DNA from: Haloprofundus salilacus | GTDB lineage: Archaea > Halobacteriota > Halobacteria > Halobacteriales > Haloferacaceae | Assembly (NCBI RefSeq): GCF_020150815.1 | Contig: NZ_CP083723.1 | Coordinates: forward strand, 682,001-746,000 | Reading direction: 5' to 3' | Length of the DNA: 64,000 nt | Shown here: positions 38,433 through 39,019 of the stretch, one piece after another | Position numbering within the stretch: the first letter of the stretch is position 1 | Layout of the letters: each line of letters begins with the position of its first letter | Position numbers and translations under genes: made by a program | The notes under the pieces: model-generated | What the model was told of the DNA's origin: nothing | Seen by the model: the letters and a program-made list of their open reading frames with translations, nothing else | Database searches by the model: none

Positions 38433-38628
38433 TAGCCTGTGGGTGGGTGACTCTCGCATAAGTGGGTTCGGATTCGGACGCAATTTTGCGGATATTCGTG
38501 AACATTGGGCGGTTTGACGGCCGTTTTACCCGTTTGCCGAGAAACCGTCGGCGGCGGGTCGAGTTGGGTTTTGGTCTCTCGGCGAAGCGGGTCGAAACCC
38601 GTATGAGGGCGGGAATACTACATCGATT
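38433..38628. other. Gap between asd and the guide RNA
   Basis: No gene is seen. The asd promoter lies near 38455-38462 on the minus strand. A/T-rich words near 38565-38625 could hold the promoter of the guide RNA, but none is decisive. Confidence 0.4.
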
Positions 38629-38813
38629 GCGTGCCTTTAGTCCCCGCCCGAGTGTTCCCACTTTGGGAGCGATGACCGCGCGGCGAACCCGGGCACGCGA
38701 CATCAGTGCAACCGCCGTCCGGCCGAAAGGGACGGCTGCCTGGCACGAGGGTTTCCCGGCCGACGCGGCACGCCGCCACGGGATGAGGCCGGTCGTTAGT
38801 GTCCCGGGCAACA
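38629..38813 (+). ncRNA. H/ACA guide RNA resembling haloarchaeal sR-h45
   Basis: Two H/ACA units read rightward. Unit 1: lower stem GCGTGCC (38629-38635) with GGCACGC (38692-38698), then ACA (38700-38702); upper stem CGCC/GGCG; kink-turn-like GAG and CGATGA sides. Unit 2: TGCCTGGCAC (38737-38746) with GTCCCGGGCA (38801-38810), one mismatch and one wobble, then ACA (38811-38813); upper stem CCGGCC/GGCCGG; GATGA again. Guide arms lie 14-16 bases before each ACA: AACCC in unit 1, TAGT and GTTA in unit 2. These fit rRNA positions 2605 and 1940/1942. A third hairpin (38714-38736) lies between. Confidence 0.72.
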
Positions 38814-39019
38814 TTTCAAGACGACACTAGAAGCGTCTACGATCAGTATCGATGACGTCTTCTCTCGCTTATCGACTATCCCACGAACTCGTATTCGTCG
38901 AATGGGAGCCGGTCGTCCGTCCGGTAACCGATGATTTCCGCAACTCGCTCTGGTTCACTGGATCGGTCCGATACGGATTTCGCCGACTTGATCTCCTCTC
39001 GTCATCTCGCCGTCGAACT

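Follow-up and report, generated by a model that had tools for sequence, protein, structure and literature searches.

The intergenic stretch between asd and the cold-shock gene csp of Haloprofundus salilacus carries no annotated gene, which raises the question of whether it encodes a functional RNA and, if so, of which kind. The window considered here comprises 64,000 nucleotides (assembly GCF_020150815.1, contig NZ_CP083723.1, positions 682,001 to 746,000 of the forward strand), and all coordinates refer to this window. A preliminary description, made from the sequence alone, had proposed a two-unit H/ACA guide RNA at this position that matches sR-h45 of Haloferax volcanii. With a probability of roughly 95%, positions 38628-38813 (+) constitute an unannotated two-unit archaeal box H/ACA guide RNA gene, the Haloprofundus counterpart of the published hairpin pair HP1/HP2. 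The identification corrects the annotation of a gene that is kept across a class of archaea and is undetected by the Rfam families in the window, and it yields covariance-supported models of both hairpins.

Sequence and fold of the two hairpins

Two hairpins with ACA boxes and two GATGA motifs had been claimed for this locus, and all of them are present in the window sequence (Table 1). The ACA follows directly 3' of the closing stem in HP1 as well as in HP2, and the guide arms start at the distances given earlier, 14 nt before the ACA for AACCC in HP1 and for UAGU in HP2, and 16 nt for GUUA in HP2. The end of the element at 38813 is likewise unchanged, with the start of HP1 now placed at 38628 instead of 38629. 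The kink-turn of HP2 is canonical (CCGGCC-GA / UGA-GGCCGG) and its stem covaries. In HP1 the GAUGA is invariant on the 3' side, the canonical 5' GA is absent in some relatives, and the upper stem contains a non-canonical mid-stem pair in most sequences.

An unconstrained fold of the predicted transcript (38628-38816) recovers both closing stems, each of 9 bp and that of HP2 interrupted, together with a stem within the linker. With flanking sequence included (38600-38840, 241 nt) the prediction is an alternative structure, which we consider a misfold, and the folding energy is unremarkable (z = -0.97). Folding energy alone could therefore not reveal the guide, and the case rests on comparison.

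Table 1. Features of the proposed guide RNA gene in window coordinates.
Feature	Position	Strand	Description	Basis
Putative promoter	38594..38606	+	BRE-like CGAAAC (38594-38599), TATA-box-like GTATGA (38601-38606)	Conservation
HP1, first H/ACA hairpin	38628..38702	+	Closing stem of 9 bp, internal loop that holds the guide arms, upper stem, GATGA side, ACA at 38700-38702	Alignment, pair counts, single genome match (98.7 bits), fold
HP1 5' guide arm, UUUAGUC	38636..38642	+	C, U and G pair with G2613, A2614 and C2615 of 23S rRNA, followed by a mismatch and one U.G	
HP1 3' guide arm, AACCC	38686..38690	+	Pairs with GGGUU 2606-2610, adjoining target U2611; 14 nt before ACA	
Linker	38703..38737	+	Hairpin GCCGUCC...GGACGGC (38714-38736), separated from the closing stem of HP2 by a single base (38737)	Stem in free fold, compensatory change inside the genus, own-arm test over 63 loci
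HP2, second H/ACA hairpin	38738..38813	+	6 + 3 bp closing stem, internal loop, 6-bp upper stem CCGGCC/GGCCGG, kink-turn GA/UGA, ACA at 38811-38813	Alignment, pair counts, single genome match (105.5 bits), fold
HP2 5' guide arm, GAGGGU(U)	38747..38753	+	Pairs with (G)ACCCUC of helix 69	
HP2 3' guide arm, GUUAGU	38795..38800	+	UAGU pairs with ACUA (target U1948), GUUA pairs with UAAC (target U1946)	

Conservation and covariation

Covariance models were built from 25 loci each, R1 for HP2 and R2 for HP1. Both models have exactly one match in the genome of H. salilacus; a better match elsewhere, which the preliminary description had named as evidence to the contrary, does not occur in the whole genome. 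DNA searches recover the locus in all 5 genomes of the genus, with 92-95% identity for the four relatives, and give matches at E <= 1e-12 in all but one of the 170 genomes of the family, the exception being a genome of 56% completeness. Across the class Halobacteria, R1 matches 383 of 391 genomes, and all 78 loci that were checked carry HP1 (model R2) upstream of HP2 in the same orientation. None of the three genomes of family f11 (G307, G354, G418; 88-92% completeness) has an HP2 match under strict filters, indicating either loss or strong divergence. Genome G293 differs from nearly all others in having two equal-scoring copies of HP2 (G293:C1:1714775-1714851 and G293:C1:3469978-3470054).

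The pairing of both hairpins, in closing and upper stems alike, is supported by covariation, the lack of which among haloarchaea had been listed as the other possible objection. In the 78-locus alignments, which are fitted to the covariance models and with which unfitted 25-locus MAFFT alignments agree, 89.7% of the cells are paired in HP1 and 98.8% in HP2, and changes on both sides of a pair occur at 14 of 21 pairs of HP1 and at 9 of 20 pairs of HP2. The covariation score of each hairpin exceeded those of all 500 shuffles, and pairing falls to 20-53% if the partner is slid by 1-3 columns. The ANA box reads ACA in 70 of the 78 loci for each hairpin, with AUA or GCA in most of the others.

No H/ACA family of Rfam matches the window, either at the gathering threshold or at E values up to 10. 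This includes RF00064 (HgcG), without a match in the window up to E = 10, so that the guide is not filed under this family. We attribute the miss to missing haloarchaeal models.

Predicted targets in 23S rRNA

Every uridine of the organism's own 23S and 16S rRNA was scored against the guide arms. The arms were fixed from the motif positions before ranking; the register of HP2 termed HP2a, with three unpaired bases, was taken from the published model. Numbering of the 23S rRNA begins at the first base matched by Rfam. The genome has two 23S copies, carrying GTAACTATGACCCTCTTAAGG and GAGCTGGGTTTAGACCGTCG. The two copies (L031, L032) differ at 32 of 2915 positions and are identical at the target sites of the guide.

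For HP2, the arms UAGU and GAGGGU place U1948 first among 788 uridines, with -18.4 kcal/mol and a next best of -11.9 kcal/mol. The preliminary description had assigned the left arm GAGGGT to helix 69, as found here, but had given its target as ACUCUC. The organism's own 23S rRNA reads ACTATGACCCTC, that is, ACCCUC, and GAGGGU thus makes six Watson-Crick pairs. The pairing of the right arm with ACUA and the shift by two bases to a neighboring U had been anticipated correctly, with U1948 and U1946 as the predicted targets. In the shifted register, the arms GUUA and GAGGGUU with three unpaired target bases place U1946 second among 787, just behind U2224 and in a near-tie with it (-18.1 vs -18.0 kcal/mol). 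Both arms are strongly conserved, GAGGGU in 77 and GUUAGUG in 78 of 78 loci.

For HP1, the arms AACCC and UUUAGUC rank U2611 first of 787 uridines. The proposed pairing of AACCC with GGGUU is recovered in the organism's own 23S rRNA. The 5' arm had been credited with about three pairs, and the computed duplex indeed has three pairs in a row and, beyond a mismatch, one U.G. It is conceivable, on the strength of this short duplex, that HP2 is the working guide and that the guide role of HP1 has been lost or weakened, U2611 being modified without HP1 or remaining unmodified, and HP1 being retained because it stabilizes the RNA or binds Cbf5. In several relatives from outside the class, GGUC stands in place of the haloarchaeal AGUC and would give one more pair with GACC; moreover, one position in P. 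abyssi can be modified in vitro without a guide (PMC2584109). However, in all 78 loci AACCC stands 14 nt ahead of the ANA box, AGUC is conserved in nearly all of them, U2611 is still the best of all uridines ranked, and for Hvo1 a productive fold with the corresponding site has been described (PMC4652768). We consider the loss of the guide role of HP1 very improbable and retain both hairpins as guides. The points that count against the preferred reading are the weak 5' arm of HP1, the near-tie of HP2a with U2224, the non-canonical kink-turn of HP1 in some relatives, and the Rfam threshold that is not reached on the window.

Matched by local sequence and offset, U2611, U1948 and U1946 correspond to pseudouridines 2621, 1958 and 1956 (numbering of H. 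marismortui), which have been published for haloarchaea. By offset arithmetic, they correspond to 2586, 1917 and 1915 of E. coli, respectively, the latter two in helix 69. The position pair 1950 = E. coli 1909 (Grosjean 2008, PMC2584109) gives 1956 and 1958 as E. coli 1915 and 1917; the position pair 2587 = E. coli 2552 was used to place 2621 at E. coli 2586.

Gene context and proposed function

The gene is located between asd, which is upstream and divergent, and csp, which has the same orientation; Pfam confirms both neighbors. That the region instead serves as a 5' untranslated region or attenuator for asd or csp, as its position between asd and the equally oriented cold-shock gene might suggest, is scarcely credible, given that asd is divergent and that relatives conserve the hairpins, ANA boxes and guides, although asd was not found beside the gene in most of them. 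The adjacency to asd named in the preliminary description holds in this genome and fails as a general mark, as asd adjoins the gene in only a few relatives; linkage to asd was therefore rejected as a defining trait.

Upstream of the guide RNA gene, 77 loci share a characteristic composition: relative to position 1 of the HP1 model (38625), A or T occupies position -22 in 100% of the loci, positions -30 to -28 are rich in A, and a second A/T peak occurs at -6. The pattern fits a haloarchaeal promoter, and the predicted start of transcription is accordingly near 38628, the first closing pair of HP1.

Judging from sequence, the gene would be transcribed independently as a two-unit box H/ACA guide RNA, and each hairpin would be bound by Cbf5, Nop10, Gar1 and L7Ae; genes for Cbf5, Nop10 and Gar1 were found in the genome. 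The pocket of HP1 is predicted to open around U2611, and the pocket of HP2 around U1948 and, after a register shift of two bases, around U1946. Cbf5 would isomerize U2611, U1948 and U1946 to pseudouridine.

The folded linker

The segment between HP1 and HP2 measures 2-177 nt in the 78 class loci, usually 17-177 nt, and outside the class 0-8 nt. In two genomes of the order the linker is nearly absent (2 nt in L075 and 0 nt in L110), the remaining loci of the class having 17-177 nt. Class linkers share little sequence. One linker of 142 nt (G254) was searched for as a dispersed repeat and has a single full copy in its own genome, and this explanation was discarded.

Linkers of at least 60 nt are folded, their folding z averaging -3.3 over 23 loci vs +0.1 and -0.5 for stretches of equal length upstream and downstream. 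Most class loci have a stem that terminates one base ahead of the closing stem of HP2; such a terminal stem was not found in some loci (L033, L040, L049, L057). For single loci its support is weak: compared with shuffles, which like the arm swaps below treat loci without regard to kinship, 25 of 77 loci reach p < 0.05 and 58 of 77 reach p < 0.2. Since MAFFT fails to bring the linker stems into register, arms were swapped between loci instead. The match of the 3' arms to their own linkers is far better than to foreign ones, with a total score of 886 vs 599 +/- 23 and a maximum of 675 for swapped arms (63 loci, 2000 permutations, again irrespective of kinship). Within Haloprofundus, one pair of the linker stem shows a compensatory change from C-G to U-A.

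The linker in the class Halobacteria may be a rapidly evolving series of hairpins, one to several in number, usually with a stem exactly one base ahead of HP2 that can stack on the HP2 closing stem, and might act as a strut that sets the distance or order of the two pseudouridylation RNPs or that protects the linker. We advance this interpretation tentatively, at slightly less than even odds. To our knowledge, which does not extend to the key paper, neither a folded linker in this guide nor such a part in other archaeal H/ACA RNAs has been reported. The folded linker poses a testable question on the layout of two-unit H/ACA RNPs.

Relatives beyond the class

Outside the order, R1 matches 43 further genomes of the phylum with 33-42 bits. 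We examined 18 loci, 17 of them outside the order together with L110, a deep branch inside it. HP1 lies directly upstream of HP2 in 7 of the 18 loci with a gap of 0-8 nt, and L110 is among the seven. RF00064 (HgcG/Pab40) has weak sub-threshold matches in 2 of 8 loci, both from non-haloarchaeal relatives (23.4 and 22.2 bits, gathering threshold 77). The weak matches and the close pair of hairpins outside the class fit the published view of HP1/HP2 as stems II/III of Pf7. In four loci outside the class (L103, L107, L109, L112) the 5' arm of HP1 contains AGGUC where haloarchaea have AGUC; provided that the 23S rRNA of these relatives is the same at this site, a fourth pair with GACC would be regained.

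Comparison with known guide RNAs

The HP1/HP2 guide is presumably the sR-h45 of H. volcanii, a name that we adopt from the preliminary description and whose targets are reportedly numbered 1940, 1942 and 2605. The claimed match to sR-h45 appears to hold, as the predicted targets equal the sites given to the haloarchaeal two-hairpin guide in two papers. In the first, HP1 is assigned pseudouridine 2621 and HP2, via alternative structures, 1956 and 1958, and a long spacer is described for halobacteria (Grosjean 2008, PMC2584109). In the second, Hvo1, Hvo2a and Hvo2b have productive folds on the same three targets (2015 NAR paper, PMC4652768). The guide family is already known; the locus adds an ordinary member and confirms published biology. 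In common with the halobacterial and H. volcanii HP1/HP2, the Haloprofundus RNA has two hairpins with a spacer, the same three 23S targets and an HP2 that is used in two registers. It differs from the H. volcanii guide in belonging to another genus and in forming, with its own helix 69, a fully Watson-Crick 5' duplex; the likeness is drawn from the published targets and the layout.

With respect to HgcG/Pab40/Pf7 of the Thermococcales (RF00064), HP2 has been described as homologous to stem III of Pf7 and HP1 as the apparent homolog of stem II (PMC2584109). Pf7 consists of three adjacent hairpins, whereas the Haloprofundus RNA has two, separated by a folded linker. The eukaryotic H/ACA snoRNAs U19 and snR191 have the eukaryotic H-hinge-ACA layout, unlike the Haloprofundus guide. 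There, too, one RNA guides both equivalent positions of helix 69 (PMC2584109).
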